DNA from: Priapulus caudatus
Taxonomy: Eukaryota; Priapulida; Priapulimorpha; Priapulimorphida; Priapulidae
DNA: 64,000 nucleotides
Direction of reading: 5' to 3'
Assembly: GCF_000485595.1 (NCBI RefSeq)
Contig: NW_014577414.1
Coordinates: 49,703-113,702, forward strand
In this document: in pieces, positions 10,851 to 58,237 of the stretch
Layout: each line of letters opens with the position of its first letter
How positions within the stretch are numbered: the first letter of the stretch is position 1
Notes under the pieces: generated by a model
What the model was told of the DNA's origin: nothing
The model's database searches: none
What the model saw: the letters and a program-made list of their open reading frames with translations, nothing else
Position numbers and translations under genes: made by a program

Positions 10851-10897
10851 CTATTTCATTTGAGAGACCATAGTTGAGTTGTTTAATAATTTTCAAT

Positions 10898-11350: not shown

Positions 11351-11374
11351 AAAGACAGAAACAACGAAACATTG

Positions 11375-28330: not shown

Positions 28331-28333
28331 TCT

Positions 28334-29800: not shown

Positions 29801-29819
29801 GGTCCCAGTCACACACTAA

Positions 29820-30421: not shown

Positions 30422-31420
30422 AGGGACGAGCTCACCGTAGACGATGGTGTCATCATGAAAGGTGATTGTGTCATAGTTCCAGCAAACATGCAGACAGACA
30501 TTCTGGCTCGGCTACATGAGTCGCACCGAGGTATCGAGAAAACGAAGCTGAGAGCGCGAACATGTGTGTATTGGAACATTATAAATTCGGATATAGAGAA
30601 CCTGGTTCGACAGTGCAGCATATGCCAGCAAGCTCAGAAGACGCAGGGCCACGAGCCGCTACTGTAGCATGAGCTTCCAACCCGGTCCTGGCAAGTCCTG
30701 GGAACGGACCTATTCTACCTGGCTGGCGATGAATACCTAATCATCAGTGTCTATTACTTAAAGTTCCCATTCGTCAAGAAAATTAGTGGCAGAGAAATGA
30801 GTCAGGCCATTGTGAACACAACTAAGAGTATCTTTGCAGAACAAGGGATACATGAGACCATAATAAGCAATAATGGTCCACAGTCTGATGGCGAAGCCTA
30901 CAAGGTTTTTGCTGAGAAGTGGGGGTTTCACCATGTATCAGCGAGCTCTCATTATCTGCAGTTAAACGGACTGATTGAGTGCCAGGTACAGACCGTCAAA
31001 ACGTCCTGACTAAAGCCAGAGCAGCAGGAATTGACGTAGATATGGCAATGTTAATACTCAGGTCTACACCGATAGACCATCACCTCCCTTCACCAGCTGA
31101 ACTTTTGAACGCGAGGAGAATGAAAGCAAACCTTCCCATGAGGATATACAACAACGCACCCAATAAGGATGGCACCATGCGGAGGCTTCTACAGCGGCAG
31201 GCATCTCAAATGGTATATAATGACGATAAGGCCGGAGGAAGCCTGGCCCCGCTTATCAAAGGCCAACCCATTTGGGTACAAGACCAGGCATCAGGCCAGT
31301 GACGTCCAGGAATAGTCACTGGGATCCGTCCAGAACAACACTTGTATGAGGTACACACGCCATCTGGCGTCACATTGAGGATGAACTGGTGTCACATTAG
31401 GGAGACATGTGAGGAGGCGA
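30422..31420 (+). pseudogene. Gypsy B integrase
   Basis: The H2C2 domain is complete (LHESHRGIEKTK ... CSICQQ, 30505-30640). A stop at 30665 precedes the core: first Asp in GTDLFYL; the second catalytic position is Asn (ISNNGPQ, about 30868); Glu is in GLIECQVQ exactly 35 residues later. The tail (30979-31302: SPAELLNARRMK, GQPIWVQDQ) is frameshifted. Loss of the second Asp alone would abolish integration. Confidence 0.85.
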
Positions 31421-31602
31421 ACACCTGCACAAGCTGACACCCCCATGGAACCTACCAGCGACCCTGGGACAGCAGCCAGAATGGAAACACTGAGCACACC
31501 ACCACATCTAGTGAAATGCGTCCATTTCCTATAGGATGCTGGAACCAATCGGGACCCAGTGGGTGATGCCAATAGTGCTTCAAGCGAGGCTGTCGCTAAC
31601 AC

Positions 31603-32147
31603 TTAGGCCTAATAAAAAAGATGTTTGTTTCAGCTAACGAGCTGAAAAAAATGGACACGGTAGGCCGGCAAAACTTTTTTTTATCAAATATATATATTTT
31701 TTTGTATTCTAACAATACTTGTTTTATACTTACTAGCTGATATTCCCATACAACCACCAAATCTTGCCTTAAAATATAAATTTCATGTAAGTGACACAGT
31801 TGAAGTTAAATATTTCATGCAACTAAAAAGAAAACAGAAACAAAAAAACATTTTTAGAAGAAACAAAGAGCGCAATTCAAAGTGAGCAGGGAAAAAAGGT
31901 AATGAAAATATCACAACAAAAAATGTATGACTGAGAGTTGTATCATGTTCCTCATGTGTTATACAAACAAAAATAGAACAAAACACCAAATTGCATAGGG
32001 TACTTGCAATTGCGTTTTACCAGCGTTGCTTGGGAAAAAAAACGCGTAGAAATAACTTGGAGCAAATTCAACCACATTTATTTACTTGATGCTAAGGATA
32101 GATTCGTAACAGAAAAACAAACAATAAACAATATTAAGACAAAAACG
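31603..32147. other. AT-rich spacer
   Basis: No gene seen; A-runs and T-runs dominate, for example at 31669-31705. Confidence 0.5.
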
Positions 32148-32183
32148 ATGATCTATCTATCTATCTATCTATCTCTATCTATC

Positions 32184-32231
<48 letters not shown>

Positions 32232-32262
32232 ACTATGTATCTATCTATCTATCTATCTATGT
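32148..32262. repeat. CTAT tetranucleotide microsatellite
   Basis: About 28 copies of ctat with few interruptions (ctctat, aactatgtat). It directly abuts the gypsy D LTR and may have swallowed that element's target duplication. Confidence 0.95.
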
Positions 32263-32265
32263 ATA

Positions 32266-32648
32266 TGTAATAACGTAGAGTTCTCGTGTAATGACGCAGG
32301 CACTAGTTTAATGATGACGCTGCAGAGTAATGATGACAAAGTCTCTCTCGTATAACGTATAGTAACTGAGATTATTAAGAACGACCACCAACGGTACGAC
32401 AACACTTCATAACGCCGTCAGCTCACAACTGTTACTCACAGAGCGTATCTCTCCCGCTCTGGTTATCCCACTCTGGTTCTCCCGCCAAATATATATCTAT
32501 GGCGCCGCTATCAGCCAATTTTCATACAATGGAATGCCCATATGACATCTCTTCCGAACACTATATAAAACGTTAAATTTTCCACAACGCTCGAGATACA
32601 CATAACACATGATACATACACATATTTAACTCCAATATACTGTCTACA
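32266..32648 (-). repeat. Gypsy D 3' LTR
   Basis: 383 bp from tgtaataacgtagag to ctgtctaca on the plus strand. Matches 37428-37527 and 38343-38690 of the other LTR, with scattered substitutions and small indels. Confidence 0.85.
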
Positions 32649-32708
32649 AACATTAACGTGATTATCAGTGATATATGTACTACGCTAGCTAATGTATCTG
32701 TGCTATTC

Positions 32709-33440
32709 TCAGTGACCATAATAATTTGGTTTTCTAGATATGCGGCCTGATCTTGTAACGTTTTCATTGGCTCTATTTTGATCCCTGTCCCTCTGATTAG
32801 GATCTACTATCACATCGTCCCTTTGCTCTCTTTCTACCACTTCTTTCTCTTCTACGACTTCTCTCTCTTCTTGTACCACTTCGAAGGTACTTAACACTCT
32901 CTCATTTGGCTCAAGTACCGTGTCATTCTCGTAGAACAACAATGGATCAGTTACTTTGACACATTCCGTATCTCTCTGTATTTTTGGCTGACTGTAAGAC
33001 ACTTTCAAATGTCTACGATGCACTGTTACGATTTTGATTCCCAGATCAATCTGATAAGCCAAGTCTGATTTTCTTTCTAACACTTTATAAGGACCATTCC
33101 ACTTATACTCCAGCTTGAAGTTTCTTCCAGGTTTCGGTTTGTTTCTTACAAAGACATTGCTACCAACTGTCAATGGCGCTTCCTCCATTGTTTTTTTGCA
33201 GTGCGAATGAAACTGTCTCTCTATCTCCTTCTCTGTGCTGCTGACAACTTCCATTCTTGTACGTCTGAGAGCAGTTATCAGTCTGTTTCCATACGCTGAA
33301 TTTGTTTTTGTTTGCAGCTTTCTGCTAGGGGATGGATATAGAACGTCGACAGGCAATTTTGGCTCCTGACCGAATAGCACGTAATACGGGGATTTTATTA
33401 GACGCGTGGATTGCTGTGTTATAATTGAAGAGCGCAACAT
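32709..33440 (-). pseudogene. Gypsy D integrase C-terminal part
   Basis: 243 codons. KSPYYVLFGQEPKLPVDVLY is the end of the core; LTVGSNVFVRNKPKPG and YKWNGPYKVLERKSD form the GPY/F-like module; VHRRHLKVSY follows. The tail is Glu/Arg-rich and ends GRISRKPNYYGH. The frame overlaps the preceding core frame, a shift near 33400. Confidence 0.86.
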
Positions 33441-33690
33441 TTATCCACTCCTGCCAGTTTGATCCTTCTGAGTTCACACAAGCTCTGAGCAGTTGCAAGA
33501 TGGATTGATTCGTGCGTTCCAACATGCCATTACTCGCTGGGTTCCATGGTAGCGTATATGTTTTGCGTATTCCTGGCAAACTATACACGTCCGTCATGAG
33601 TGCAGACGTAAAGTTTGCACCTCGATCCGAGTGTAGCTTCATGGGTACTGAGTACTTGCATATCCAATTGTTCACGAAAACGTTTGCCAC
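33325..33690 (-). pseudogene. Gypsy D integrase core, second half
   Basis: LHSDRGANF holds the second catalytic Asp (residue 22) and NGMLERTNQS the Glu (residue 58), with the standard 35 residues between. NYNTAIHASNKIPV ends the conserved part. Confidence 0.87.
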
Positions 33691-34020
33691 TCTTAATGCT
33701 GTACAGTCTTTTATTGGGTACGCTTCTGCATACTTGGAGAATGCATCTTGTACTACTAGCAGATACCTATTTCCTGCTCCGGGGAACCCACATTAAAAGA
33801 CAATATATCAAAAGCTACTCTGTCAAACGGCTTTGACTCTGATCTAGTGGCCTCACTCGCATGTGGGTTTGGGTTTGTCGTACTCTTAGTCATGGCGCAA
33901 ATTGCACACTTCTTTAGCATGTTTTTGATATCTGTATACATGCATTACCAGACAAATCTGCTCGTTACCTGATCTCTCGTTTTTTCTACCCCAAAATGGC
34001 AACACAAATCATGTACTTGA
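33691..34020 (-). pseudogene. Gypsy D integrase zinc-binding end and core start
   Basis: On the minus strand CAICAMTKS (about 33896) is the Cys pair of the H2C2 domain, and PFDRVAFDILSFNVG (about 33815) contains the first catalytic Asp. The His pair is in a different frame to the right, so at least one shift is present. Confidence 0.8.
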
Positions 34021-34743
34021 CTAATGATTGTTTCGCTGACTTTGTCCACTGCTGGGACCAATATACGCCATTGACCGTCTTGTTCCAGATACAACACTTC
34101 TGCGAACATTATCTCTGTACCAATTTGTCTCCCTTACTGGATCACACTGAATACTATTCACAGATGCGGTGCTCTCTACTACGTACTTCAGCTGCTGAAA
34201 CAGCAGGTCCCCGTGCTGCGCACCTTTAACGACAGTAAGATATTGGTTGTATTCAACGTTTTGAGTAGCAGACGACTTCAGATTGTGACAGCTTTTCACA
34301 CAGCATTCTTGTTGATCGCCTTCTGGTATCCGACTTGGTGTATCAGCTATGACATTTTCTTGGCCGCGAATATAGCTAATAATAAAACTATAGGGCTGCA
34401 ACGCTAACCACCAACGTGCTATTTTTGAATTCGTCTGACTCAAGTATCGTATATACTGTAGTGGTTTATGATCACACTTCAAGGTGAATTTCTCTGCACC
34501 CAACAGATAATATCGAAACGAGTAGATGGCATATGCTTCCTTCTCCATCGTAGACCATCTCCTTTCTGTGTCACTCAGCTTCTTCGAGATGAATGCAACT
34601 GGCTTCGTAATGTCATCTCCATCAGCCTCGTACTGTGCCAACACACCCGCTAGGGCACGATCAGATGCGTCTGTGTGTACTATAAATGGTCGCCTGAAGT
34701 TAGGAAAGCTCAATACCTTGTCTGTACATAATACTTCCCTCAA
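34021..34743 (-). pseudogene. Gypsy D RNase H
   Basis: RRPFIVHTDASDRALAGVLA (first Asp), RWSTMEKEAYAIYSFRYYL (Glu), LKCDHKPLQYIRYLSQ (Asp-His) and IADTPSRIP in order, all expected residues present within one frame. The last 70 residues form the linker to integrase. Confidence 0.88.
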
Positions 34744-35037
34744 TTTATCAAACTGTAAGCAGTGCCTCTCGTCCCATTGCCACTTAGCATTATTTCTTGT
34801 CAGGTCAAACAGTGATGCCGTCTACTCGGTAAACTCTGGAACGAATTTCCTATAGTAATTCGCAAAGGCCAAAAATTTCTTCAACTCTGCCTTGCTCACA
34901 GGTTCGGGATATTTGCGAATCTTCACTAACTTCCCCACATATATTTGTACTCCTCGCTCTGAAATTCGGTGACCCAAGTAACACACTTCAGGTTGAGCAA
35001 AATAACATTTTTTCAGTTTTAGAATTATTCACGAGTC

Positions 35038-35697
35038 TCACATTTTCTGTAGTGTTTTCTGCAATCGTGTTAACAATAACTCTAAAGTCGGTGCTCCAAT
35101 AATGATGTCATCTAGGTATCCTGCCACCTGTTCCTTACATAAGTCATTGAGCAAGCGATTCACAAACATTTTATATGTGTACGGTGCCCCACTTAACCCA
35201 TAAGGCATTTTGTCGTAACAATATTGCTCTCCCGTATATTCAACAAACACTGTTTTCTTCTGGTCTTCTGTTGCGACTGTTATCTGATGATAACCTTGAG
35301 CCGCATCTAAAACTGCAAAGCACTTGAAACCTCGTAATGTATCGAACAACTCTTCCGGTTTCGGCATTATGCAATCACCCACTGACTTCGTCTCTGCATG
35401 TAACTGCCTGCAATCTATTACTAGGCGTTTCCTGCCACATTTCTTATCTATTAACATGCACAGCGCGCTGAACTGTAACTTGCACGGACGTATGACGTTT
35501 TTCTTCAATAAACTCTGGATTTGATTACCCATCTTCTTACGCTCGTGCCATGCGCCCTTATAGGGCTTGCGTTTAACAGACTTAACATCTGACTTTAACT
35601 CGATTTTTTGCGTTACTAACTCGCGATTCACCTCTTCCAAACGATCCTCTGTACCATAGGTAAATACATCCTCGTAACGCGATAGAACATTCAACAC
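35038..35697 (-). pseudogene. Gypsy D reverse transcriptase
   Basis: 219 codons from the lead-in YEDVFTYGTEDRLEEVNREL through KNVIRPCKLQFSALCMLIDK, LVIDCRQLH, palm Asp in FAVLDAAQGYHQI, MPYGLSGAPYTYKMFVNRLL and the catalytic box GYLDDIIIGA. The thumb (about 34750-35037) is in other frames. Both active-site aspartate clusters are intact. Confidence 0.9.
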
Positions 35698-40071: not shown

Positions 40072-40190
40072 GCACGCACCGCCATCTATTGAGGAAAATA
40101 ATTTTTTTTTTTTCTTTTTAATTATTTTAAATTTTTGTTTCTGCCAGAACCACCTGCAAGACGTGGTGATTCTGAATATATCTTCAGTTA
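40072..40190. repeat. Interspersed repeat 'ccgccatctattga', copy 1
   Basis: gcaccgccatctattgagga, a T-rich tract, then agacgtggtgattctgaa and atatctt-agtt recur in the same order at 45757-45900. The family is unknown to me. Confidence 0.65.
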
Positions 40191-40775: not shown

Positions 40776-41510
40776 CACTAGTAGACCGGCAGCCCAGAGG
40801 CTTCAGGGTAGACGAACTAGGTACCAATATCTACGTATTGGAGTATACAGGGTGTCACCTAAGACTTATAGAAATGCTATTCTGGCGGGTACCCCCCGTT
40901 GCGTAGAGCCAGGGGACCCCCCAAAAGGGTGTAAAAAACGGGTCTGAAATAGATGAGCATGGTACCAATTGCAATAAGTACCATGGTGAGGTAACTGCTA
41001 AATATACATCAAAAACATATACGACAGAAATTTCGCTGTTGTTTAAAGGCCCGCCAGACCCCCAAAAGGGCCCAAATATTTTAGGCTAGAATAGCGAGAC
41101 AGGTACCAAAGTGAAAGTGATGCCAAATATCAGGTTCATTCCATAGAGACAAAACAGCTACGCCATAATTTGCCTGTTGTACAAGGGTGCCAGACACCAT
41201 CAAAATATTGTACCCCTGGAGCACTGTGGTACATCTAGGCTGGCCTAGATGTTATAGGTACACATTGAAATAGGTTTAAGTGACAAAGCAACTCCTCTGG
41301 GAATACAAAATGGCAATGACAGAAAATGTATTCCAATGTGTTGGTCCTGCAGACCCCAAAATAGACCCTTGGCCCATCTAGGCTAGTCTAGATGTTATAG
41401 TGTACCACTTGAAACTAGGTTTAAGTGACAAAGCACTTCTCAGGTAATACAAAATGGGCAATGACAGAAATATATTCCATGGTTTTGGTCCTGCCAGACC
41501 CCCAAAATAA
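40776..41510 (+). repeat. Left terminal inverted repeat
   Basis: About 735 bp. Subrepeats end in ggtcctgccagaccccc-like words (about 41045, 41200, 41346, 41500). The last two units contain the dyad catctaggctagtctagatg or its near copy. Matches the right arm at roughly 85-90 percent by eye. Confidence 0.85.
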
Positions 41511-42302
41511 CGGACGCTACATTCGGGAAGATCAAGGTTCATCGGCCGCGGGTTTCTGTGAGAATAGACAGCACAGCATCATGATCCAGGGAGGAAAAAC
41601 AGAGGAACATGACCCTTGCTCCTCCACAGAGAGCTTTAACAAAGACTAATATGAATACTAATTTTAAACTTTGATATTAAACTTATTGACAAGATTTTAT
41701 TTCAAAAATGCAAATTAAACTGAGTTAAAAACGGACTCAAGAATGGGGCAAGTTTTGCCATCCACATCGTACATACAAAAATATCTCTACGTTTCAACCA
41801 CGAATATCAAACAACTCATAATTGCAAATCCTAGAGATTAGGAACAAGATATAAAAAAATAAAATCTGGATGAAAAAATACAATGATTCAGGAAAACGAA
41901 TAGTAGCAAGTAAGTACATGTAGTATCCTTAAGAATCGAGCCGTTGGCTCGTTGATGCGGACATCTCAGACTGCTAATATTTGGATTCAAATCAGAAGCC
42001 ACAACAATGACATTTCTCACAGAGAATCTAGGGTATACAGTATCGTTTTATGCTTTCAACCTAATATATAGTATATCCTTAAATTCTAACTTTGTGATAG
42101 AGAATTTTAAAAGTAATTTATACTACTGTCATCATTCGCTGAGACAAGACTAGAATGAGGTAGTATTCTCATGTGAAGCACCATCACAACCAGTACTTGC
42201 AGCAGTATTTACAAAACAACATCACTTCCGATAATGCAAGGAATATAGGTCCTATAGCGTAAAATGCACTTGTCAGTTGGCTAAGCAACTTCAGGCCTCC
42301 TC
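41511..42302. other. Region downstream of the element's gene
   Basis: No open frame recognised. AT-rich; presumably 3' flank of the minus-strand gene. Confidence 0.45.
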
Positions 42303-43080
42303 TCAACTATCCGAATCGTCACTCCATTCTGGTCCAGAGTCTGTGCCAGAATCATCCGTTGGGATGTCATCAATGTCCTCATTTTCCTGTATCTCTATCG
42401 GTTCCTCCTCGTGATCATTGCAGAAAGATTGTCTGGTTCAGCAGGCCCAGGAAAACCAATCTGGTACAATAACTGGCCGTTTTCATTCTCCATCCATACT
42501 GGAGAGGCGTCACAGATCTGGTCTGTTGTGGGGAGTCTGCATTACCCCATATGATGCTCACATAATGCGCACGCTGTACTTTATTCCAATGGTCTTTCCA
42601 CATGGGGTAGCAGGCACAATCCACTTCTTGACTTTTGCCATTGGTTTTCCTGAAACGACAAGAGGAATGAATTCAGGAGGTACCGTACAATATATTATAG
42701 GTCAGTTGTGTAAAGGTGCCTCTCCACTTATTCCATCATTCACTTTAGCTCATTCCATATAGGAGCACACGTACACTTCTGCGATCTTTCTCTTTGTTCC
42801 CCTCTCGACGACATGCTGCTGAAGAACTGGATCAAACTTTCCGTCCATTGTCATCTTCTAGTAGCTCGTACGGCTTGATTTTCCCTTTTCTGTAGAATGC
42901 CGCTGTAAAGTCACAGCGCTGAAAGCATGTAGGCCTGGGCAAAGCGGCTGCTAGACCTGCTTTGTTTCGTCTCTAAAGCCCTGGCAATGCCTGTTACATC
43001 AATGTATCTTCTACTGTGCCAGAACCACAATCCTGATGATCATCTTCAATGGTATCCCAGCACCAGTTCCGCTCCGAATG
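42303..43080 (-). pseudogene. C-terminal part of the element-encoded protein
   Basis: Read right to left after the gap: at 42927-42879 CFQRCDFTAAFYRKGK followed by IKPYELLEDDNGRKFDPVLQ, then (42660-42480) KWIVPATPCGKTIGIKYSVR, QTPHNRPDLCDASPVWMENE and NGQLLYQIGFPGPAEPDNL, and a last frame RQSFCNDHEEEPIEIQENED running on through a very acidic stretch to the TGA at 42303. I recall this pattern from large uncharacterised metazoan proteins with an H-A-x-T-G-C-D motif; here that motif is degraded (RCD). At least two frameshifts and one stop interrupt it. No function is assigned. Confidence 0.6.
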
Positions 43081-43483
43081 NNNNNNNNNNNNNNNNNNNN
43101 NNNNNNNNNNNNNNNNNNNNNNNNNNNNNNNNNNNNNNNNNNNNNNNNNNNNNNNNNNNNNNNNNNNNNNNNNNNNNNNNNNNNNNNNNNNNNNNNNNNN
43201 NNNNNNNNNNNNNNNNNNNNNNNNNNNNNNNNNNNNNNNNNNNNNNNNNNNNNNNNNNNNNNNNNNNNNNNNNNNNNNNNNNNNNNNNNNNNNNNNNNNN
43301 NNNNNNNNNNNNNNNNNNNNNNNNNNNNNNNNNNNNNNNNNNNNNNNNNNNNNNNNNNNNNNNNNNNNNNNNNNNNNNNNNNNNNNNNNNNNNNNNNNNN
43401 NNNNNNNNNNNNNNNNNNNNNNNNNNNNNNNNNNNNNNNNNNNNNNNNNNNNNNNNNNNNNNNNNNNNNNNNNNNNNNNNNNN
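43081..43483. other. Assembly gap (403 N)
   Basis: The gap falls in the middle of the element's gene. Frames called through it are artefacts. Confidence 0.99.
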
Positions 43484-43925
43484 GTGAGCAAGTTTTCAAT
43501 GTTTCAACAGAGGTAGGAGTTGGTGTTTCCCATTTAGGCATCTCCTGGATTTCTTTCCTTAAGTAAAAGGCAGCACTTCGTATGATGGTGTGGCGTTCCT
43601 CTTTTTCATTCTGCAGGCTAGCTCTTGCAACATCTTCAGATAAAGCCGAACTGTACAGGAAATTCCCTTTACGGTGGTCAAAAAGAGCTGTAGATATTCT
43701 TTCTTCAAATCTGTCCTGAATTTTTCGCACCAATGCCTGGGGTGTGTAACTCGCGATGTCCTCCTCTGTTCCACCATTTCCCATATATTCTGCTTTGTAC
43801 ATGTTAAATAATGATGAAACCAGTATTGCCTGACCATTTTCAATCACTTCTGTCGTAATAAATGTGGCAAAAGTTCCGAAGGTCTCTGCATGTAACTGCC
43901 TGTTCGTAGCATGTGTTGCCTGCAT
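43484..43925 (-). pseudogene. Middle part of the element-encoded protein
   Basis: A 147-codon open stretch from MQATHATNRQLHAETFGTFA down to the gap: helical, with ENGQAILVSSLFNMYKAEYM and YTPQALVRKIQDRFEERIST. No domain name can be given. It follows the Cys/His module after a frameshift near 43940 caused by a partial duplication. Confidence 0.65.
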
Positions 43926-43968
43926 CTTTTGGGGTCCCTCAATCTCCTTTTACGACGACAGGACACGG

Positions 43969-44537
43969 TATCAAAAATTACGACGACAGGACTTGTGATA
44001 CTGTGCCTCTTTCGCGATTAGATCAATACGGACTAAACCTTTGATCCTCTCATTGGTACTGTGAGGGGCTGCCGCAATGATTTTATCGCAACCTTCTATC
44101 GTAAGACAATCTGAAAGTGTCTCTTGTTTCTGTTTTACAGTTTTCCTCACTTTCCCACAGAAGATACAGGATCCTTTAAGCAAACCTGCTGCATCGTCTT
44201 GAGGAATTAAACTCCTTCGTCTTGTATCCGGCTTTTTCACTGGGGGTTCATCCTTGCTCAGATATGTTGGTCGTTTTGCAGCTGTGAAATTCTTATAGCA
44301 TGGTGTTGAATGATAAACAGCAGTGCCATGGCCTGTTTGTAAGTTGATCTCTATAGTCACATCTCTGTATTTATCTGTCTTAAACTGTAGTCTTAACTCT
44401 GCTGCTTTCTTCAGACGCGCCCAAGTTCCATCATCAAACTCTTTCAGCCCAGTCCCATCACTGGTTTTGCATATGATGCACGATCTCTGGGGCTCATCTT
44501 GTAAGGTCTGGATACTGCTACCCCCAGCATCAGTTTC
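43969..44537 (-). pseudogene. Exon with two Cys/His modules
   Basis: The exon starts after a splice acceptor (tttcag, cag = 44540-44538) and reads ETDAGGSSIQTLQDEPQRSC. Module 1: C-x2-C (CIIC) ... Y-H-x3-C-Y-K-N-F. Module 2: C-x2-C (CIFC) ... Y-H-x2-C-R-R-N-F. The two modules share spacing and the terminal aromatic motif, so they look like an internal duplication of one zinc-binding fold of about 65 residues. The frame ends at a stop (43966-43968) next to a 14-bp repeat tcctgtcgtcgtaa that occurs twice within 28 bp. Nucleic-acid binding is a guess from the Cys/His pattern. Confidence 0.7.
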
Positions 44538-44721
44538 CTGAAACAATGTAAAGGTTCAACCCAATTGCTTCCAACCTACCTTGATTCATCATTGCTATAA
44601 TAATTAAATGTGATACTCCTACTGATCACAAGTAAAGTATCATGCCAGTCATCCAAGTACCGGGATCAACGCTGTTGCCATTGCATCGTTTTGACTTGAA
44701 CAAGTGTAAAGTGGGACTCAC

Positions 44722-44804
44722 CATTTCAGGTAGAATGTCTGAATTTTCATCTTCCATTTTTTCAACCAAGTTGGGTTTCAAAACATTTGTGACATGTTTT
44801 ACAT
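44722..44804 (-). pseudogene. Upstream coding exon of the element gene
   Basis: 83 bp between acceptor ctttcag (44811-44805) and donor gtgagt (44721-44716). It reads VKHVTNVLKPNLVEKMEDEN and SDILPEM, and ends in phase 0, which matches the phase-0 start of the next exon at 44537. The 184-bp intron between them has canonical ends. Frame match and sites agree, so the splice is credible without transcripts. Earlier exons are not identified. Confidence 0.6.
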
Positions 44805-44830
44805 CTGAAAGAATGGACCCAAACTTGTAG

Positions 44831-45302
44831 TAGACTCGCTAGTAGGGGAGCCACACCACAAATAGGCCTGGTAGTTGAAAGTTCAGTGGGTGTGGATACT
44901 GTCATATAGTATGCTGAATTGGGATACTGAGCATTTTGAACGGCAAGGAGCTCAAAGGGGTGTCAAAATTTATAACCATATTGTATTTTATAATGTACTA
45001 GCTGAATACCCGGCGTTGCCCAGGGTAAAGTGAGAATGAAAGAGGGCTACATATATATTTTACATTTGTTGCCAGTGTTTGGTATCAGTGGTGCAGGGCC
45101 TCAGGGTAGACGACGTTGCGCGTATGATTGTTTGGTGCGAGGATGCTGAGATGCAGTGCGCTGCCGGTGCAAGAGGCAGCCACATACAGCTGGCCGTGGG
45201 AGAAGCACGGGACAGAGAGGTCGAGACCAATCGCTTTGAATGTTTGTCCTTAGGCCTTGAGCCTTTTCGCATGCATTCTCGGAATGAGGCTGTATAATGT
45301 TA
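44831..45302. other. Non-coding stretch with a common 3'-end word
   Basis: No exon recognised. 44999-45026 reads tagctgaatacccggcgttg cccaggg, a word I have seen near ends of interspersed repeats in other animals. ggcctcagggtagacgacgt at 45097 echoes the element's TIR. Confidence 0.4.
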
Positions 45303-45431
45303 CAGTGGAACTTTAGCCGGCTCAAGGATAGAGAGCATGTCCAGTCCTATCCTATCAACTAACACCATCCTATCCAATCACCACCCTGGACATCATCTCT
45401 ATCCTTGAACCCTCTAGCCTACGTTCCACTG
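45303..45431. repeat. 129-bp hairpin element
   Basis: cagtggaac at the left and gttccactg at the right, with tcaaggatagaga...atgtccag mirrored by ctggacat...tctctatccttga inside. Almost the whole unit folds on itself around a loop of tcctatcc words. A mini foldback repeat; a precursor-like hairpin RNA is conceivable but unsupported. Confidence 0.68.
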
Positions 45432-45756
45432 GAGGAACAGGACGTCCAGGAACAGATCGAACAGGAGGAACAGAAGCTAATGTTAGTTACTGTACGTGCA
45501 ATATTTATGCTGCTGAAACTGCGTTGCTTGCGTTAATGAATGAGCTAGCTGAGTTGAGCAATAAGTTGAGTAGAGTTATAGCTTCAGTACTGAGTTCAGT
45601 GAGTAGCTTTCAGTACATTTAGCTTCAGTACTAATATTAATAAGTCAGCCTAGCCAATACTTCAGCCTGTACGCTTCCTAGATCGAGTTCTCACCTGCTC
45701 ACGATGTTGACTGTGTTCACGTGTACTGTGTAGCGCACCAACAACAATCTCGCACG

Positions 45757-45900
45757 TTGCCGCCATCTATTGACGAATAGTAAAGTATTAACTACATTTT
45801 AGTAAGTTAGTTATTAATTTTTAACTTTTTAATTTTTGTAATTTTGGTTTCGCGCAGTACCATTTCCCAGACGTGGTGATTCTGAAAATATCTTTAGTTT
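45757..45900. repeat. Interspersed repeat 'ccgccatctattga', copy 2
   Basis: Same order of words as 40072-40190 (ttgccgccatctattgacga, AT tract, agacgtggtgattctgaaaa), same orientation. It lies inside the CACTA-ended element, copy 1 outside it. Confidence 0.65.
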
Positions 45901-46450
45901 TCCTCTAGGCTGCAGGGTTCTCTAGTTCTCGGAGTACGAACTAATTGGGCTGAACAACTTACCTACAATTATTATGTATTAGCCTACCTACAAGGAAAGT
46001 CCTCCTGCAAAAAGATCCAGATCTATGCACATCTGACATGTCTTGCACACATTAAAACAGATAACCTATAAGATACATGAACCGTAGGGCTTATCCTATT
46101 TTCACATTAGATATCATGGATTTAGGTATAGGCAAGGTATGGTGTACACCCGGGGGTGTACAGGCCTATATAGGCCTAATATAGCCTACCATGCATCGCT
46201 TGATGATGGGGTATGGCCGGGTGATGGGTCCTAGCTATATTCATACATGTACACACAAGGGGTCTGTTATATTTTGAACAACACTTTTCTTTTTGATCTA
46301 ATTAAATACCTTAACTCTTTAGAATTTTCAAAAAAGCATTGACAATATCTGAAAAATTATCTGATAACACGTGCGTTCCTGCGTTGTTGTTGTTACGTTG
46401 TTGTTGTTGTTGTTGAGGGACGGCGATTCCAACTGGGCCTGGGGTAGGCC
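45901..46450. other. Non-coding stretch up to the right TIR
   Basis: No gene. Contains taggcctatataggcctaat words (46160-46185) and a gtt trinucleotide run (46383-46417). Confidence 0.5.
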
Positions 46451-46454
46451 TAGA

Positions 46455-47207
46455 TGTACGGTTGGGGGTTCTGGAGGCGCCAATGCATTGGGAATAATTT
46501 CTGTCATTGCCCATTTTGTATTCCCTGAGAAGTGCTTTGTCAATTAAACCTAGTTTCAAGTGGTACCTATAACATCTAGACTAGCCTAGATGGGCCAAGG
46601 GGTCTATTTTGGGGGTCTGGCAGGACCAACACATTGGAATACATTTCTGTCATTGCCCATTTTGTATTCCCAGAGGAGTGCTTTGTCACTTAAACCTAGT
46701 TTCAAGTGGTACCTATAACATCTAGGCCAGCCTAGATGTACACAGTCCGCGCCAGCGGGTAACAATATTTGAGGGGTGTCTGGCACCCCCTTGTACACAC
46801 AGCGCAAAGCATTTCTGGCGTAGGCGTTTTGTGCTCTTATGGAATGAACCTGATCATTTGGCATCACTTTCACTTGGTACCTGTCTCGTCTATTCTAGCC
46901 TAAATATTTGGGCCCTTTTGGGGGGTCTGGCGGGCCTTTAACAACAGCGAAAATTTCTGTCGTATATGTTTTTGATGTATATTTAGCAGTTACCTCACCA
47001 TGGTACTTATTGCAATTGGTACCATGCTCATCTATTTCAGACCCGTTTTTTACACCCTTTTGGAGGGTCCCCTGGCTCTACGCAACGGGGGGTACCCGCC
47101 AGAATAGCATTTCTATAAGTCTTAGGTGATACCCTGTATACTCCAATACGTAGATATTGGTACCTAGTTCGTCTACCCTGAAGCCTCTGGGCTGCCGGTC
47201 TATAGTG
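46455..47207 (-). repeat. Right terminal inverted repeat
   Basis: About 750 bp, the inverted counterpart of 40776-41510 from ttctgtcattgcccattttg to gggctgccggtctatagtg. It carries one extra partial subrepeat at the inner side (ggggtaggcctagatgtacg). Confidence 0.85.
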
Positions 47208-48955: not shown

Positions 48956-50074
48956 CTAAGTGTCATCCCGACCCATCCGGCGGTCATCCCGGCGGTGGCG
49001 CAGGGGAGATGGGGGCGCCACAGCAGGGGCTAGCGGTTCCTTCAGGCCTGGGGCGTTGTGAGGCATCAGGGCACGAAGGGCTCGGGGGACTCGGCCGTTG
49101 GCTGCTAGGCTCGGTGGTGATGGTAGAGCCGTTGATGGAGAAGCCATGGCGGGAGATCGAGGTGTCGAGGCCAAGTCGGTCCGAATAGGGGGCAGGCTGG
49201 TACCAGTAGGGCGAGACTCAGCCGTTGGTGTGGCTGGGGTGGCGGGTAGCAGCTGGCCAGCCACTCGTGCAGGTGCAGTAGGTCCCCGGCCCGGAGTAGG
49301 GAGGGGTGCAGGTACCGGCGGTGTTGGTGGGCCAGGTGCCATCAGGAGTGGTGCACGTGGGATGACTGGGATGTATTGCCGCAGGAACTTCCTGTTCCGG
49401 AGAGTAACTCTACCAGAGCCATCAACCCACACGACGTATTGGTCGAATTGCCTCACCTCCACTACGATCCCGGTTTTGTCCCACTTTGTCGGGTTGGGGC
49501 CAGTTTGATTCTGGATCCTAACGTAGTCTCCGATGGTCAGTGGTGGGAGAGGGCGGGTGTGCTCTGATAGGCGCTCGGCAGAGCGCATGTGCCTGTTACG
49601 CAGAGCCTCTTCCCGGGATGTGAATGTCTCGCGCCACGTGCTGTGCGGTTGGTACTTCCCCGGGTGAATGGGAATGAAATCACGGATGGGGCGTCCGAAG
49701 ACACACATGGCGGGGGAGAGATGTGTATCACGGTCAGGCGTGTTGCGGTACTGGAGGATGGCGCGTTGGAACTCATTCGTGTTGAGAGAGCCCTCAGCGT
49801 CAGTGTTGTCAGTGAGGAGGCGCTTGACAGTCTTGACCCCCACCTCTGCGCGGCAGTTGCTGTGGGGGAAAGCAACGGATGACGTTCGGTGATTCACACC
49901 CCAGTCACGTAGAAAATTGCGGGTGGCGCCTGCCGCAAATTCGGGGCCACCATCCGATGACAGCTCGTCGTTGATGCTGAAAGTCACGAAGACGCGGCGC
50001 AGGGCAGCAATTAGTCCTTTGGCACCATTGGCGGCCTGCTCAACGATCGGCCAGTTGCTGTGCCGATCCAACAC
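48956..50074 (-). CDS. Gypsy C integrase core end and proline-rich tail
   Basis: 372 codons. [17 protein letters not shown] belongs to the first core strand pair; SSDGGPEF (residue about 40) holds the second catalytic Asp and [15 protein letters not shown] the Glu; [20 protein letters not shown] follows. [20 protein letters not shown] and [20 protein letters not shown] form the SH3-like DNA-binding module. The last 130 residues are Pro/Ala/Ser-rich and end [12 protein letters not shown]. Separated from the previous frame by one shift near 50040, which falls close to the first catalytic Asp. Confidence 0.88.
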
Positions 50075-51498
50075 AACCAGGTAGTTCCGACCACGGTAGA
50101 TGAAGTAGTCAGCGGCGATGCATTGAAATGGATAGTCCGGCTGTACAGGCCGTGCTGTGAAGGTGCCATGCGGTTGCAGGGAGAGCAGCGTGCCCGTATC
50201 TCAGTGATGGCAGGAGTCATGCCCGGCCAGAAGAATGAGGACTCTGCCCGTGAGCACATCATGGTGACACTCTGGTGGGCTGAATGCAATGCCTGGAGTA
50301 CCCGGTCACGGAGTGATGGAGGAATGATGATGCGGTCCTTGTAGAGGCATACCCCATCAAATTCTGTGAGGTTTACGCGAAACTGGGGGGATAGTTGGAG
50401 TTCGTGAGGGAGATCACTAGGCAGCTCGGGGAAGCCCTCCTGGATGAACCCAGCCAATCTGCACATGGTTGGGTCACTGGACGTGGCGACACGGACATCG
50501 TCCCATGTGATGGACTTGATCACCTCCGTGGGCCGTAATGTCGACTGACTGCAGATTTGGACAGGGTCCGGGTCGTGGGTACGGATAGCAGCGATGAAGT
50601 CACGGGGCAGCTCAGGTGGTTGGTAGCAGTCGATGACCACTCCGACAGGTGCCACATCGTCCGGGAGATTGAGTAGGGTGGCCTCTCCAACTGGGTGTCG
50701 TGAAACTCCGTCAGCTGCAGCGTGGCGTATGCCAGATATGTGAACCATCCGGAAGAGGTAGCGTAGTGACTTCTCCTTCAGGTTGCGGAGTCGGGGGTTC
50801 GGAATTTCGTCAAGCGATCGGTCGCCAATCTTCAGGAGGGGCTTGTGGTCCACTGCGACGATGAGGTCCGAGCAGCCGAGGAAAAAATGGCTGGTTTTGT
50901 CAAGGGCATCGACAACTGCGAGAGCCACTCCCTCCACCGGGGCATAGCGGGACTCCGCGCCTGAGGTGAATCGGCTCCCGACAAGTGTGATCCTCCAGCC
51001 GGTCTTGCAGCAAAAAGGGTTGGTGGAGGGGCAGGCACAATGCTTCTGGAAAAGCCAAAATCCGATGCCATCTTTGCTCCAGTCTGTTGCGAGGCAGGTC
51101 GGTTTGTTCTTGTCAAATATTTCCACCCCTTTATGAATCTCGCCGATGATGATGGATTTTGACTCCTCAAACAGGCGGTTCAGCTGGTCGGTCCACTGGA
51201 AGGGTGTGCCAGGTTTGAGGAGGGTGCGGAAGGGGAGCAAGCGTTCGGTCGAGGCGAAGGCATATGAGACCTGGTTGATGAGGCCGAACCAGCTACGCAC
51301 ATCTGTGATGTTGCGAGGGGTGGGGAAGTCCTGGATGGCCTCGAGGTAGCGAGAGCAGGGGCGCACGGAAGTCGGTGTGACCTCAAAGCCGGCAAACTCC
51401 GTAGTCATCATGGCAACCGAGAACTTCGCAGGGTTTAGTGTGATGCCATTGTGGCCGCAGGTGTCGAGCCACCTAACGCTGGAAGAATGCGTCCTCAA
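50011..51498 (-). CDS. Gypsy C RT thumb, RNase H and integrase N-terminus
   Basis: 495 codons. [20 protein letters not shown] and [13 protein letters not shown] are the RT connection; [20 protein letters not shown] the thumb. RNase [17 protein letters not shown] (Asp), [18 protein letters not shown] (Glu), [16 protein letters not shown] (Asp-His), [14 protein letters not shown]. Integrase H2C2: [16 protein letters not shown] ... CSPCNRM. The frame leaves the true reading near 50045. Together with the other two frames this is a complete Pol. Confidence 0.89.
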
Positions 51499-53785
51499 TG
51501 GTGTCTGCCCACATCAGCGTGTCGTCCACACACTTGGTCTTCTGTGGGATCTCAGAGACAACCTCATCAAATCGGCGGCTGTATCCGTCGCCTGAAGCCA
51601 CATAGCCTTGAGGGGCAACGCGGTAGCAGTAGCGACCCCAGGGTGTGATGAATGTGGTGAGATGGCGGTCGTCCTCGTGCAGCGCGACGCTGTGGTACCC
51701 ATTCCATGCATCAAAGACAGTCTTGCGAACATTTGGTGGTACTGCACGCGCCTGGGGGAAGGGGGACTGTGTGTGGTGGGTCTCACGAACCGCGTGGTGG
51801 TTGAGTGGCTGGAGGTCCACGGTCCGCCTTGGCTTGCCAGACTTCTTCGGGCAGATCACCATTTTGTGGCACCATGTGACTGGGGTGCCGACTGGGACTG
51901 GTTCAATGACACCGAGTCGTACATCTTGGTCGAGGCCTGCCTTCACGTCACCCTGCCAGTGTATGGGGACGGGGATGGGAGTGTGGAAAGCGACAGGTCG
52001 AGCGTCAGGGTCAACCATGAGCCGAAACGGGGGACCAGCCATCATTGGGAGTGGTTGGTGCTCGCAAACGTTGAAGGTGCTCGAATTGTAGTGTTCGAGC
52101 AACCACTTCTCAAGTTTCTCTCGGTTCTCCTCAGTAGCTGGGAAGGGGAGTGACGTGGGTGTAGTGGGTGGCATCTGGCGTCGAGGGCAGTCGCAAGAGG
52201 GTGTGAGGCAGGATGTAGGTTTGAGCGATGCTATCGTGGCAGAGGCTGCAATGCTGGGACTGCTGGGTTTGGCTGCCTCACCGATAGTGGGTAACCTGCT
52301 AGAGATCATGCCAAGAGCGACACACGCTTGCTTCAATAGGTATAGCCTGTCGGATGAATCAGTAAAGTATGTTATCTGCCGTGTTTCCAGAGTCTCTCCT
52401 GATGGGGAAGTGCCGGCGATGCGGAGGACCAGAGCACCTGCTATACGAATACCGCTTTTATTGGCAGCAGTCATTCTCATTGTGACAGGGATGAGATGTC
52501 TCCTCTCCAGCCCCAGTTTGGACAATAGTTTTGTGCTGGCTAAGCATGACTGGCAGCCAGTATCAGCCATGGCAGGGTAGGAGGCTGATGGTGTTGGGCC
52601 GTGGGTGGGGGTAGGGAGGCCAAGGTCTTGGGCATCAAGCGGGTTTGCCGTGACGGAGACGTTGATAAAGGGTTGGGGGTCAGATGCGCGCCGCTCCCAT
52701 GCATTGCAGAACTCATTGTAAATGTGGTGCCCGAGCGTGATAGCATGGGTGCCCATAGGTGAGGCATCATTGACCGAGCACAAAGATTGGAAGATAGCGG
52801 TAGCATCGACGTGTGACACCTGTGCATTGGTCACTGGTGGCGGTTGTCTCCGCTGTGACTGACGGCACACACTCTCATGATGGTGGAGCAGTCCGCACTT
52901 CACGCAAGTGTGATTGTACGCAGTGCACTTCCTCATGCGTTCCTGTTTGGCGCTTGTGTGGCCTGGCTTGCCGCAGTGGCCGCACAATGGGTACTTGGTG
53001 TCACGGGGCTGTGTCTTGTCCTTCTCCCGACGTTTGTAGGAGCTGGTAACGGCTGCAGTCGTAGCGGTGCCGCCCTCCAGGAGACGACCTGCGGAGCGCC
53101 GACCACTCTCTTTGGCCTCCACATTTTGTAGCACCCTCTCCAAACACATGTCCTGTTGGGATTGTCCAAGGATGTCCAGGCGGATCTCTTCATCCTCTAG
53201 TCCACGGATGAGCGCATCCCTAATCATGATGTCACTGAAATCAACAACTAGGGTGCATGGACAGTCCTTCCTGTAGTTGCAGACACTGGCCTGGCCGCGA
53301 AGGCGAGCGGCGAAGGCCCTCACTGGCTCATCGCGGTCCTGGCGCATTTGCTGGAGCTGCATCCGGGCCACCATAATGTTCTCTTGGCGGACTGCCAAGC
53401 TTTTGATGTTCGTGAGGATAGTCTGCTCATCCCTAGATGTCAGGGCTCCAAAAGTTCTGGTCAGATCTCTCCTGAGTCCTTCATCGCAGCATTCAAGCAG
53501 CTGGTAAGCGATGTCAGGTCCCGTGAGGTGGGTGGCCGCTTTGTATTCTGACCACCTTAGTTCGAAGTAAGACCATTCCTCACTTGTTCCTGCAGCCGTG
53601 ACCACTGGTCGTTTAACCTTCTCCACTTTGGCGGCGCATGAGGCGGGAGCAGGTGTCGAGGCAGAGGTGGTCGGATGGGCAGTGCGGGCATGGAGGTTGA
53701 TCAAGCTTAGGAGGATCTCCGGGGGCGTTGTGCTAGGCCATGATGTTTCGCAACCAGGGGCTGAGCAGTCGATGCGGTCCATCAC
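51473..53785 (-). CDS. Gypsy C Gag, protease and RT palm
   Basis: 770 codons from MMDRIDCSAPGCETSW, a start next to the 5' LTR (leader of about 13 bp). Residues 60-230 are the capsid-like region; C268-x2-C271-x4-H276-x10-C287 and C294-x2-C297 ... C307 are two zinc-binding clusters; D408-T-G is the protease site; RT begins near 560, with the palm Asp at 692 (FDAWNGYHSV) and the catalytic V-D-D at 753-755. Gag and Pol are in one frame. The frame ends by a one-base shift at about 51480 beside the RT box. Confidence 0.9.
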   Translation of the reverse strand: MMDRIDCSAPGCETSWPSTTPPEILLSLINLHARTAHPTTSASTPAPASCAAKVEKVKRPVVTAAGTSEEWSYFELRWSEYKAATHLTGPDIAYQLLECCDEGLRRDLTRTFGALTSRDEQTILTNIKSLAVRQENIMVARMQLQQMRQDRDEPVRAFAARLRGQASVCNYRKDCPCTLVVDFSDIMIRDALIRGLEDEEIRLDILGQSQQDMCLERVLQNVEAKESGRRSAGRLLEGGTATTAAVTSSYKRREKDKTQPRDTKYPLCGHCGKPGHTSAKQERMRKCTAYNHTCVKCGLLHHHESVCRQSQRRQPPPVTNAQVSHVDATAIFQSLCSVNDASPMGTHAITLGHHIYNEFCNAWERRASDPQPFINVSVTANPLDAQDLGLPTPTHGPTPSASYPAMADTGCQSCLASTKLLSKLGLERRHLIPVTMRMTAANKSGIRIAGALVLRIAGTSPSGETLETRQITYFTDSSDRLYLLKQACVALGMISSRLPTIGEAAKPSSPSIAASATIASLKPTSCLTPSCDCPRRQMPPTTPTSLPFPATEENREKLEKWLLEHYNSSTFNVCEHQPLPMMAGPPFRLMVDPDARPVAFHTPIPVPIHWQGDVKAGLDQDVRLGVIEPVPVGTPVTWCHKMVICPKKSGKPRRTVDLQPLNHHAVRETHHTQSPFPQARAVPPNVRKTVFDAWNGYHSVALHEDDRHLTTFITPWGRYCYRVAPQGYVASGDGYSRRFDEVVSEIPQKTKCVDDTLMWADTIEDAFFQR

Positions 53786-53798
53786 GACGCTGTTATCA

Positions 53799-53920
53799 TC
53801 AATAAGTTCAACTCTTTAGCTGATGTTCGTACTAGTTTTATTCATCATCAACCAATGATAACAGCGTCTAAAACACGTAAGACAAAAGAAACGAAATAAG
53901 TGTGAGGACATAGTCCTATA
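53799..53920 (-). repeat. Gypsy C 5' LTR
   Basis: 122 bp, same sequence as 48659-48780. On the minus strand it is followed at once by tgataacagcgtcgtgatgg, the place of a primer site; the word does not start with the usual TGG, and tgataacagcgtc also occurs inside the LTR on the opposite strand. Confidence 0.9.
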
Positions 53921-53925
53921 GTTTA

Positions 53926-54020
53926 TATATCTTTTCACTCACTTCTGATTAGGACCTGCTCATAATGTATCTCTTTCACTAATGTTATGGTTAGTAACGT
54001 TACAATCCTTACAGTCAGGT
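53926..54020. repeat. Right arm of internal inverted repeat
   Basis: tatatatcttttcactcac through gttacaatccttacagtcag, partner of 48520-48615. Confidence 0.8.
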
Positions 54021-54885
54021 TAGTAACGTTACATGGTTAGTAACGTTACAGATTTTGACTGCTTATACTTTACACATCATAGAATATTTGTAATACTTGT
54101 TCCTAAATTTTAATACAGCATTGCATAGAATAGGAAAATTTGAAATATTACAATTCATAGCCATATATTGCTTTTTCTCTGTAGAAAAATAAATTCATGT
54201 TTTGGTTAGTAACGTTACATGGCTTACCAAGGGTTTTGAATTTCACAATCTGTTGACTAAATCAATTTTTATCCTAAATTTTGTATGACAAATCTATCAG
54301 AGCATTGTACTCACTAAATAATTTTGATGAGTTTGTGTGGATATATAGTTATTTTAATGCTTATAATGGCTTGATTAACTTTTTCTTATCTTACATGAGA
54401 AATTACACAGGAAAACATCACCAATATAAATTCGCTATTTTTACATTCTTATACCAAAGACACACCAAGATAAATGTTTTTTCCAGAAACTTTGAAGTGG
54501 CTTTAGTCACGTACAAGGAAAATATGCATGAAAAAGACCATTTGAAATTTTAGGGTCATGTCCTCCTAATTATGGAATTGCCCGGATGTGTCAAGTTAAC
54601 AGTAAACGGCTGTGTTTAAGTTGGACTTTCGTTTTATATATCATGACTAGAAAACATTACACATGGTGTCACATTCATGGTGTGAATTCGACCAATTTCG
54701 CAATTCGGCAATAGAGTTGGCGAAAATAGAACAAGTTCCAATCTCCCAACTAGTTGCTATGGACCAGTTGCTCGCGCAGCTTTTACGTTTACACTGCCGA
54801 TTGTTGGTTGTATAATTGCGAAGTTGGTCCAATTCGCCAATTTGTCTGCATAAAGTCGGTAGTGTAAACCCAGCTTTGATAAGAC

Positions 54886-55109
54886 TCTGGTAAAGCAGCA
54901 CATATTGAGCCCACGCAGAACAAACGGTGTGTAATTTTTATGCTATAATATTACCGTAATTAAAGGGGGTGCAAATACAGTTTATGACGTCCAGTATGGC
55001 GGCGCAGTTTTACACTACCGCCATCTACCGCCCGATCTAAGAAACTATGGGAATGTATCGGAGCGTATCGTATTGACCGTATCGTATTACTGCGCCTATA
55101 GGCGATCTG
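54886..55109. other. Short spacer before the satellite array
   Basis: No gene. Contains atggcggcgcag and several gtatcg words. Confidence 0.4.
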
Positions 55110-56517
55110 CACACATAAAGTGTATTCAGCTTAATAACGATTAATAATAATTATTATTCGGTTTAATTACTATATGTACATTAACCTGCACGTGTTTACG
55201 TTTATCTGTGTGCGTGGTAGGTTTAGCAAACCATATTTAGTATGAATTCGAAGCGTGTTTATAAACCGCCGGTCATACGCGGGGCTCATAAAATGAGCCT
55301 CACGAATAGCAGCGCTACATGGCGGCGTACGTCACAAAGTGTATTTCGCATAATATTTTGCTAACGATTAAGGTGACAATAAAATTTCCTATATCTACAT
55401 TGACCTACACGTGTTGTCGTTCATCTGTGTGCGTGACAGGTTTAGCAAACCATATTTAGTATGAATTCGAAGCGTGTTTATCGACCCAGCGCTAGGCTAA
55501 GGTTATAGCGCTATGGCTGGGGTCATAAAGTGTATTCGGTTAAGTATTTCGCTAACGATTGAGGTGACAATAAAATTTACTTGATGTACATTAACCTACA
55601 CGTGTTTACGTTCATCTGTGTGCGTGGTAGGTTTAGCAAACCATATTTAGTATGAATTCGAAGCGTGTTAATCGACCGCTGGTCAAACGCGGGCTCAATT
55701 TCTGAGCCTCATAGCGATATAGGGACGTCACCAAGTGTATTGACGTTCACAGTTCGATAACAAATACTTGGAAGAATAAATTAACGTTATGTACATTAAC
55801 CTACACGTGTTTACGTTCATCTGTGAGCTTGATAGCGTTAGTAAATTATATTTACTATGTAAACGAAGCATGTTAATCGACCGCCGGTCAAACGCGGGCT
55901 CAATTTCTGAGCCTCGTAGCGATATAGGGACGTCACCAAGTGTATTGACATTCATAGTTCGATAACGAATACTTGGAAGAATAAATTAACGTTATGTACA
56001 CGTGTTTACGTTCATCTGTGTGCGTGACAGGTTTAGTAAAGCATATTTAGTATGTAAACGAAGCATGTTAATCGACCGCCGGTCAAACGCGGGGCTCATA
56101 AAATGAGCCTCACGAATAGCGCTACATGGCGGCGTACGTCACAAAGTGTATTTTGCATAATATTTTGCTAACGATTAAGGTGACAATAAAATTTCCTATA
56201 TCTACATTGACCTACACGTGTTGTCGTTCATCTGTGTGCGTGGTATGTTTAGCAAACCATATTTAGTATGAATTCGAAGCGTGTTTATCGACCAAACGCT
56301 AGGCTAAGATTATAGCGCTATGGCTGGGGTCATAAAGTGTATTCGGTTAAGTATTTCACTAACGATTGAGGTGACAATAAAATTTACTTGATGTACATTA
56401 ACCTACACGTGTTTACGTTCATCTGTGTGCGTGGTAGGTTTAGCAAATCATATTTAGTATGAATTCGAAGCGTGTTTATAAACCGCCGGTCATACGCGGG
56501 GCTCATAAAATGTATAA
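55110..56517 (+). repeat. ~200-bp satellite array
   Basis: Seven tandem units of about 190-220 bp, marked by cacgtgtttacgttcatctg at 55189, 55409, 55599, 55804, 55999, 56215 and 56405. Two unit types alternate: one with ggctcataaaatgagcct and gctacatggcggcg, one with ggctcaatttctgagcct and gggacgtcacc. Each unit holds aaaccatatttagtatgaat. The same family appears inverted at 61435-61562 and in both orientations at 62690-63630. Confidence 0.9.
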
Positions 56518-56534
56518 TGTATATACATGTCATA

Positions 56535-56765
56535 AGGTAGTCACTATATTATAGGGTGATATGCCTAGTAGTCATATTAAAACTTGATAGTCATTCTTTA
56601 TAGGTAGTCACTATATTATAGGGTGATATGCCTGGTAGTCATCTTACAACTTGATAGTCATTCTTTATAGGTAGTCACTATATTCTAGGGTGATATATGC
56701 CTGGTAGTCATCTTACAACTTGATAGTCATTCTTTATAGGTAGTCACTATACTTAACTTACATAA
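56535..56765 (+). repeat. 67-bp tandem array, block 1
   Basis: About 3.3 units of 67-69 bp starting aggtagtcactatattatag and containing ggtgatatgcctagtagtca. The array runs into the assembly gap. Block 2 is at 61563-62150. Confidence 0.9.
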
Positions 56766-56775
56766 NNNNNNNNNN
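56766..56775. other. Assembly gap (10 N)
   Basis: Ten undetermined bases join a satellite directly to the inside of a gypsy gag gene, so the true distance is probably much longer. Confidence 0.98.
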
Positions 56776-56795
56776 GGGAACTTTTTCTACAAAGT

Positions 56796-57251
56796 TTGCC
56801 CGCGAACGTTCGTTTGATTCTTGCCTCAACAAGCGACTCGCTCTCATTGAGTGACCTGGCCGAACTCGCGGACAAAATTATTGACGTCTACGTCCCAGCC
56901 ATAGGGATGGTTTCGGCCGAAGCAACCGCCCTGTCTTTTGCCGCGCCGATGGAAAACCCGGTTGTCGCACCGGTTGCCACAGCAACAGTCCCCGATTCAA
57001 ACGAAGACTTACGAGGAGACATCCGTAAGCTTTTCAAGATGGTGCGCGACTTACAAGTACAGGTCGGCCGATCACAGCGCAACTATAGTCGTGGTCGCGG
57101 TAGGTCACCATTGCGCGCCAGTGGGACTGCACATGCTGATCCCAATGCGTTGTGTTACTACCATGAACGATTTGGAGATAGGTCCAACCGATGCCGATCT
57201 ACATGCGCGCGATCGTCCGAATTTTTGGAAAACGGCAAGGCCAGTCGGTAG
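56796..57251 (+). pseudogene. Gypsy E gag, C-terminal part
   Basis: LPANVRLILASTSDSLSLSD continues the helical capsid; DLAELADKIIDV is the conserved end of this capsid type. After a basic Ser/Arg linker (YSRGRGRSPLRASG) comes [18 protein letters not shown], a Cys/His cluster in place of a classical zinc knuckle. The frame closes at 57251 by a shift; it reads open to the left up to the gap. Confidence 0.86.
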
Positions 57252-58237
57252 GCGCGACGACCCGCACTGGTGCGCACAGCAGTCGCCTATTTTACATCAC
57301 TGATGTTAATTCTCGCAGGCAATTCCGGGTCGATACTGGCGCTGCAGTGAGCGTTTTTCCACCTTCTAAGCAAGAAAGGGGGAATGCTTGCGCGCTTAAC
57401 TTGCAAGCTGCGAATGGTACGCCCATTCCCACATACGACCAACGCTCTTTGACCCTGGATTTAGGCCTGCGTCGAACATGCCGCTGGATTTTCACCATCG
57501 CGAATGTCCCTACACCGATCATAGGCGCGGATTTCTTGCACCATTTTCATTTCTTGGTCGATGTCAACAGACGTCGACTCGTCGACCCGCTGACCAGCTT
57601 GTCAGTCATGGGCACGCCGTCCGATTGTCCCGCCGTCAGCCCGGTCTACGGAGACCGAGATTCCGACAACACGTTTGAGCACATACTCAAGCGCGAATTC
57701 GTAGATATAACCCGTCCGGTATATCATTCCGACGACGTAAAGCACGATGTAACACATCACATCGAAACGAACGGACCCCCTGTTGCAGCACGTCCGCGCA
57801 GGCTAGTTGGGGACAAACTTCAAATCGCACGCGACGAATTTAACCATATGCTGGACCTAGGCATTATTCGGCCGTCTAACAGTAACTGGTCCTCGCCGTT
57901 GCATATGGTGCCGAAGAAGTCCCCGGGTGAATGGCGTCCGTGTGGTGATTACCGCGCACTGAACCGAGTGACCGTAAACGACCGTTATCCCGTTCCGCAT
58001 ATACAGGATTTCGCATCTGGACTTCACAGCAAGAAAATTTTTGCCAAAATAGATCTTGTCAGGGCGTATCATCAGATACCCGTGGAGCCCGGTGATGTGC
58101 ACAAGACGGCCATCACAACCCCGTTCGGTTTATTCGAGTTAACCGAATGCCTTTCGGTTTGTGCTGCGCCACGCAGACATTCCAGCGCTTTATCGACAAG
58201 GTATTGCGCGGATTGCCGTTTGTCTACGCGTATATAG
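57191..58237 (+). pseudogene. Gypsy E protease and RT, first part
   Basis: 348 codons; the first ~20 are out of the true frame. [13 protein letters not shown] (Asp at residue 48) is the protease active site and [11 protein letters not shown] its end. [42 protein letters not shown] and palm Asp 288 in [12 protein letters not shown], then TPFGLFE. A shift near 58140 ends the reading. Confidence 0.9.

Follow-up and report, generated by a model that had tools for sequence, protein, structure and literature searches.

The 64,000-nt stretch of the Priapulus caudatus genome analysed here (the window; positions 49,703 to 113,702 of contig NW_014577414.1) contains a 6.4-kb element with the appearance of a DNA transposon. 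Long inverted arms enclose it, and between them lies a broken minus-strand gene that encodes two zinc modules.

Arms and termini of the element

The features that delimit the element are the following:

40779–40781, no strand: proposed left copy of the target site duplication (TSD) TAG, from the sequence; equal to 47203–47205, at one locus only
40782–41505, plus strand: left terminal inverted repeat (TIR), starting with TAGACCGGCAGCCC, from its alignment with the right arm
41232–41509, plus strand: inner left arm, tandem repeat of a 144-bp unit in 1.9 copies (Tandem Repeats Finder)
46462–46738, minus strand: inner right arm, tandem repeat of a 146-bp unit in 1.9 copies (Tandem Repeats Finder)
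46462–47202, minus strand: right TIR with six GGTACC sites, a candidate transposase-binding motif (arm alignment and motif count)
47203–47205, no strand: proposed right copy of the TSD TAG, from the sequence

The arms of about 740 bp that had been predicted originally were recovered with lengths of 724 and 741 bp, and a gapped alignment of one with the other gave 699 identical columns out of 713 aligned. The outermost 249 bp differ by two substitutions only, and the outer 252 nt are 99% complementary. In the inner half, the differences are chiefly insertions or deletions (indels) of one base. For the inner left arm (41030–41505), the mostly one-base gaps relative to the right arm could reflect sequencing error instead of age. 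The 14-base end TAGACCGGCAGCCC is present as an exact copy at each end of the element, and no other exact copy exists in the window.

At the left junction CAC-TAG is followed by TAGACCGG, and at the right junction CCGGTCTA is followed by TAG-TGG. CACTA thus adjoins both arms, and the element had been described as CACTA-ended and, as one option, as a member of the CMC group (CACTA/Mirage/Chapaev) with an unusual protein. However, the arms can be aligned without indels only from TAGACCGG inwards; a terminus at this position results in perfect arms and in a TAG on both flanks. A terminus at CACTA requires a one-base indel at most six bases from the end, and the flanks GTAT and GTTA contain no duplication of 2–4 bp. 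CACTA is therefore most likely the target sequence rather than the terminus of the element. The empty site deduced from the junctions would be CACTAGTGG with the palindromic core CACTAGTG; insertion into such a target would therefore leave CACTA on both sides, although it is not part of the element. Since the termini are not CACTA and no TSD of 2–4 bp lies outside CACTA, CMC membership was rejected. No CMC family was matched in Pfam either, and we consider this identity highly improbable. Elements of the hAT superfamily have a TSD of 8 bp; they were rejected because ATCACTAG and TAGTGGTT differ. Kolobok, whose TSD is given as TTAA in the available excerpt of PMC9587614, was rejected on account of the flanks CTAG and TAGT.

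The motif GGTACC occurs four times in the left and six times in the right arm, compared to means of 0.35 and 0.34 in shuffled sequences; these counts were reached in 1 of 2000 (left) and 0 of 2000 (right) shuffles, which overstate the evidence because the motif was picked post hoc. Ten sites lie outside the element, where the window comprises 57,579 nt. In the right arm, the positions 39, 180 and 322 form one group and 490 and 636 another, with spacings of 141–146 within the groups. The sites are candidates for transposase binding. An 82-bp repeat inside the element (45818–45899) is 77% identical to a sequence just outside (40108–40189), which suggests a nested dispersed repeat.

The broken gene and its protein family

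The gene consists of the following parts, in which P0030 and P0053 designate two related proteins:

44722–44757, minus strand: proposed first exon, 12 codons from the ATG, followed by a GT donor, deduced from the sequence
43974–44537, minus strand: exon with two zinc modules; open frame with AG on its 5' side
43950–43973, minus strand: short stretch with two in-frame stops, part of a tandem duplication, from the sequence
43487–43949, minus strand: open stretch beyond the zinc modules, winged-helix-like in the P0030 model (sequence, tblastn, model)
43081–43483, no strand: gap of 403 bases, a run of N in the sequence
42889–43032, minus strand: fragment of a C-terminal nuclease-like domain with frame changes (tblastn to P0053)
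42303–42437, minus strand: acidic C-terminal open stretch (open reading frame, ORF); its junction to the rest is conjectural and the frames differ

On the minus strand, the exon 44757–44722 is followed by a GT...AG intron, the exon 44537–43974 and a same-frame continuation at 43949–43487. The zinc modules have the forms C-x2-C...H-x3-C and C-x2-C...H-x2-C. In an alignment of ten rows that includes the exon from the window, neither the His/Cys pairs of the two modules nor the second C-x2-C vary at all, and the first C-x2-C is almost invariant. The x-x-N-F motif that had been assigned to the end of each module did not withstand this comparison: its Asn is variable, and the second N-F of the window directly precedes the two in-frame stops, which follow the second module within a short tandem duplication between 43974 and 43949. 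Past the gap, C-terminal pieces occur in shifting frames, and the gene is thus broken on either side of it. One of these pieces (42889–43032) matches residues 923–970 of P0053 (tblastn, E-value 3e-5, 42% over 48 amino acids). Part of the frame changes and stops could be due to sequencing or assembly error.

In a composite of P0030, used as far as P0053 begins, and P0053, 969 residues (2907 nt) spanned the gap of the window. About 969 residues in the relatives by far exceed the capacity of 403 bases; therefore, either this copy has lost an internal segment or the length of the gap is strongly underestimated. About 2.9 kb of coding sequence found in the relatives has no counterpart in the available sequence of this copy.

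Three protein searches yielded 55 different proteins, and the N-terminal part of the gene product (about 350 residues) belongs to this family. By means of tblastn, 49 of them matched the window; P0053 did so after the gap and the other 48 before it, and six proteins had no match. Named relatives are from Anneissia japonica, Meganyctiphanes norvegica, Myxine glutinosa, Palaemon carinicauda, Brienomyrus brachyistius and Petrolisthes cinctipes. Among the relatives scanned, neither NCBIfam nor PHROGs gave a match, and no Pfam hit exceeded the cut-off; a transposase, CMC included, was matched by Pfam neither in these proteins nor in the pieces from the window. The viral contigs searched contained no relatives, and two pattern matches proved to be something else. 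A sequence search of the PDB retrieved nothing with P0053 and two engineered proteins (E-values 0.1 and 0.57) with the query A2.

Arms and gene might be separate entities, if a non-autonomous TIR element had received or captured an unrelated fragment of a transposon gene. The copy is broken and incomplete, the linkage of arms and gene was observed at a single locus, and further repeats such as 45818–45899, which resembles 40108–40189, lie inside the element. However, the gene begins and finishes between the arms, with pieces of both ends of the protein in order on one strand, and all tblastn matches of the 55 proteins in the window fall within the element and none outside. We consider a captured fragment distinctly unlikely.

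Predicted domains of the relatives

Although many of the 55 proteins are fragments, the motif WDN-D was found in 28, YDL in 19 and GNFHxE in 18 of them, and 16 contain all three. The P0030 residues D471, D633, H662 and E664 are invariant in 12–13 of the 13 alignment rows that cover them. This conserved core, rich in D/D/GxxH/E, falls in the part that is absent or hidden by the gap in the copy of the window. That the original prediction saw no standard transposase triad is explained by the lack of this part, which carries the conserved acidic core in the relatives. In 7 of 29 members, the core was matched by DUF6589 (PF20231), with a best E-value of 0.0027 and all scores below the 27-bit cut-off. 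Pfam gives no function for this family, and nothing relevant was found in the literature under its name.

The predicted structures of P0053 and P0030 have a mean predicted local distance difference test (pLDDT) of 52.6 and 65.6, and their catalytic parts are unreliable. The zinc modules were modelled with pLDDT values mostly above 89 in blocks of ten residues. Residues 210–309 of the P0030 model, which correspond to the "helical middle" described earlier, resemble winged-helix domains; the 50 rows of the fold search were mostly winged helices. The search for a hidden fold that had been proposed thus gave a winged helix and the sub-threshold DUF6589, but no significant transposase or nuclease fold.

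The C-terminal part of P0053 contains the motifs VYDGG (727), CLDKY (769), EADT (873), SDTD (895) and GCDFT (961), whose order is that of the acidic motifs in FEN1/XPG nucleases. The likeness to these flap nucleases comprises order and spacing of the acidic motifs, whereas a significant profile similarity to archaeal FEN1 is lacking. A pattern for the last three motifs was matched by 24 of the 25 archaeal FEN1 ORFs (usable ORFs were obtained from 25 of 27 loci; L001 and L002 gave none), by 1 of the 55 relatives (P0053) and by 2 of 20,000 shuffled P0053 sequences.

Assignment and significance

The element is probably a decayed cut-and-paste DNA transposon with TIRs, whose DDE-type transposase would be fused to an XPG-like nuclease, and it most likely belongs to the AcademX lineage of the Academ superfamily. 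XPG is the nuclease partner of the Academ transposase; a statement to this effect was not found in the literature searched. Superfamily and lineage reportedly go back to Kapitonov and Jurka in 2010 and to Kojima in 2020, with the latter as the defining paper. According to the available excerpt of PMC10045372, AcademX elements have TSDs of 3 or 4 bp and AcademH elements TSDs of 9 or 10 bp, linked to an encoded nuclease and helicase, respectively. The duplicated TAG at this one locus fits AcademX, as do the animal host and, by prediction, the nuclease-like domain. A difference is that the evidence for the nuclease is its motif order, and that the copy in the window lacks the core. AcademH, which belongs to the same superfamily if the assignment holds, differs by its helicase and longer TSD from the element with its 3-bp TAG and no Pfam helicase match. 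Academ elements are abundant in bivalves, where their mean length of 5565 bp (excerpt of PMC10294476) is of the same order as the 6.4 kb found here.

In an intact element, the two zinc modules and the winged helix would bind the arms, perhaps at the repeated subterminal sites that contain GGTACC. The DDE-type RNase H core, which is missing in the copy of the window, would cut and join DNA, the C-terminally fused FEN1/XPG-like nuclease would trim DNA intermediates, and insertion would duplicate 3 bp. The copy described here could not make the full protein and would be mobile only with protein from an intact copy.

Several observations weigh against this assignment. The TSD is known from one copy, and three bases agree by chance in 1 of 64 cases. 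Fold searches with the modelled catalytic parts retrieved no transposase or nuclease fold, and the C-terminal domain of P0053 was modelled with a pLDDT below 50. A Pfam scan of this piece was empty. The FEN1-like pattern was devised after inspection of both sequences, so that its shuffle counts overstate the evidence, and P0053 is the only relative that reaches the GCD motif. A hidden Markov model of archaeal FEN1, applied with --max, did not report P0053, while 1051 of 2000 shuffles were scored; hhalign gave a probability of 0.07 percent for P0053 and FEN1, with a short alignment that pairs SDTDVL with QDFDSL. Finally, the element was likened to Academ by means of published descriptions rather than a reference sequence, and it is in this sense that we infer its probable membership.

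The latter point also favours a DNA transposon that belongs to none of the named superfamilies and in which zinc modules and a winged helix are joined to a DDE-like core and an XPG-like tail, as does the lack of NCBIfam and PHROGs matches and of Pfam matches above the cut-off in the relatives scanned. In contrast, a nuclease-encoding lineage with a TSD of 3 or 4 bp has already been described as AcademX (excerpt of PMC10045372), and three features fit it; we consider a non-Academ origin rather unlikely. It is conceivable, albeit doubtful, that an unnamed animal superfamily combines in one polypeptide a double zinc module and a winged helix with a DDE-like core and a nuclease of the FEN1/XPG type. 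If so, this polypeptide would act on arms of about 740 bp with GGTACC sites about 140 bp apart, roughly the distance of a helical array, and the fused nuclease would process an excision or flap intermediate.

The surroundings are rich in retrotransposons. Gene remnants of long terminal repeat (LTR) retrotransposons are located at 6533–18978, 28235–35697 and 48956–60457; all ten remnant ORFs scanned matched reverse transcriptase, RNase H, integrase zinc-binding or integrase core domains in Pfam, and the match of one of the ten (17080–17664) was below the cut-off. Around a Gypsy-type gene region (55167–56744 and 61437–62898), direct repeats of about 190–205 bp are clustered on one side and have inverted partners at a distance of about 6 kb. 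Positions 1–957 form an array of a 27-bp tandem repeat, in which one frame is open as a repetitive ORF.

The original prediction thus remains valid with respect to arms, zinc modules, gap and acidic C-terminus, and its reading as an animal DNA transposon with a poorly described gene agrees with the wide occurrence of the protein, the lack of Pfam matches above the cut-off and the TIRs with a 3-bp duplication; x-x-N-F motif and CMC membership had to be abandoned, and CACTA is most likely not the terminus. Most likely, the element represents a transposon family that is ordinary but poorly annotated. A description of the mechanism of a transposase-nuclease fusion was not found in the literature searched. 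The analysis provides a probable name and domain architecture for a family that has no Pfam entry and is found in a crinoid, crustaceans, a hagfish and a teleost. It further proposes termini and a TSD, points to candidate binding sites, predicts the fusion of a transposase with a nuclease, and indicates that a palindromic target such as CACTAGTG can imitate CACTA ends.
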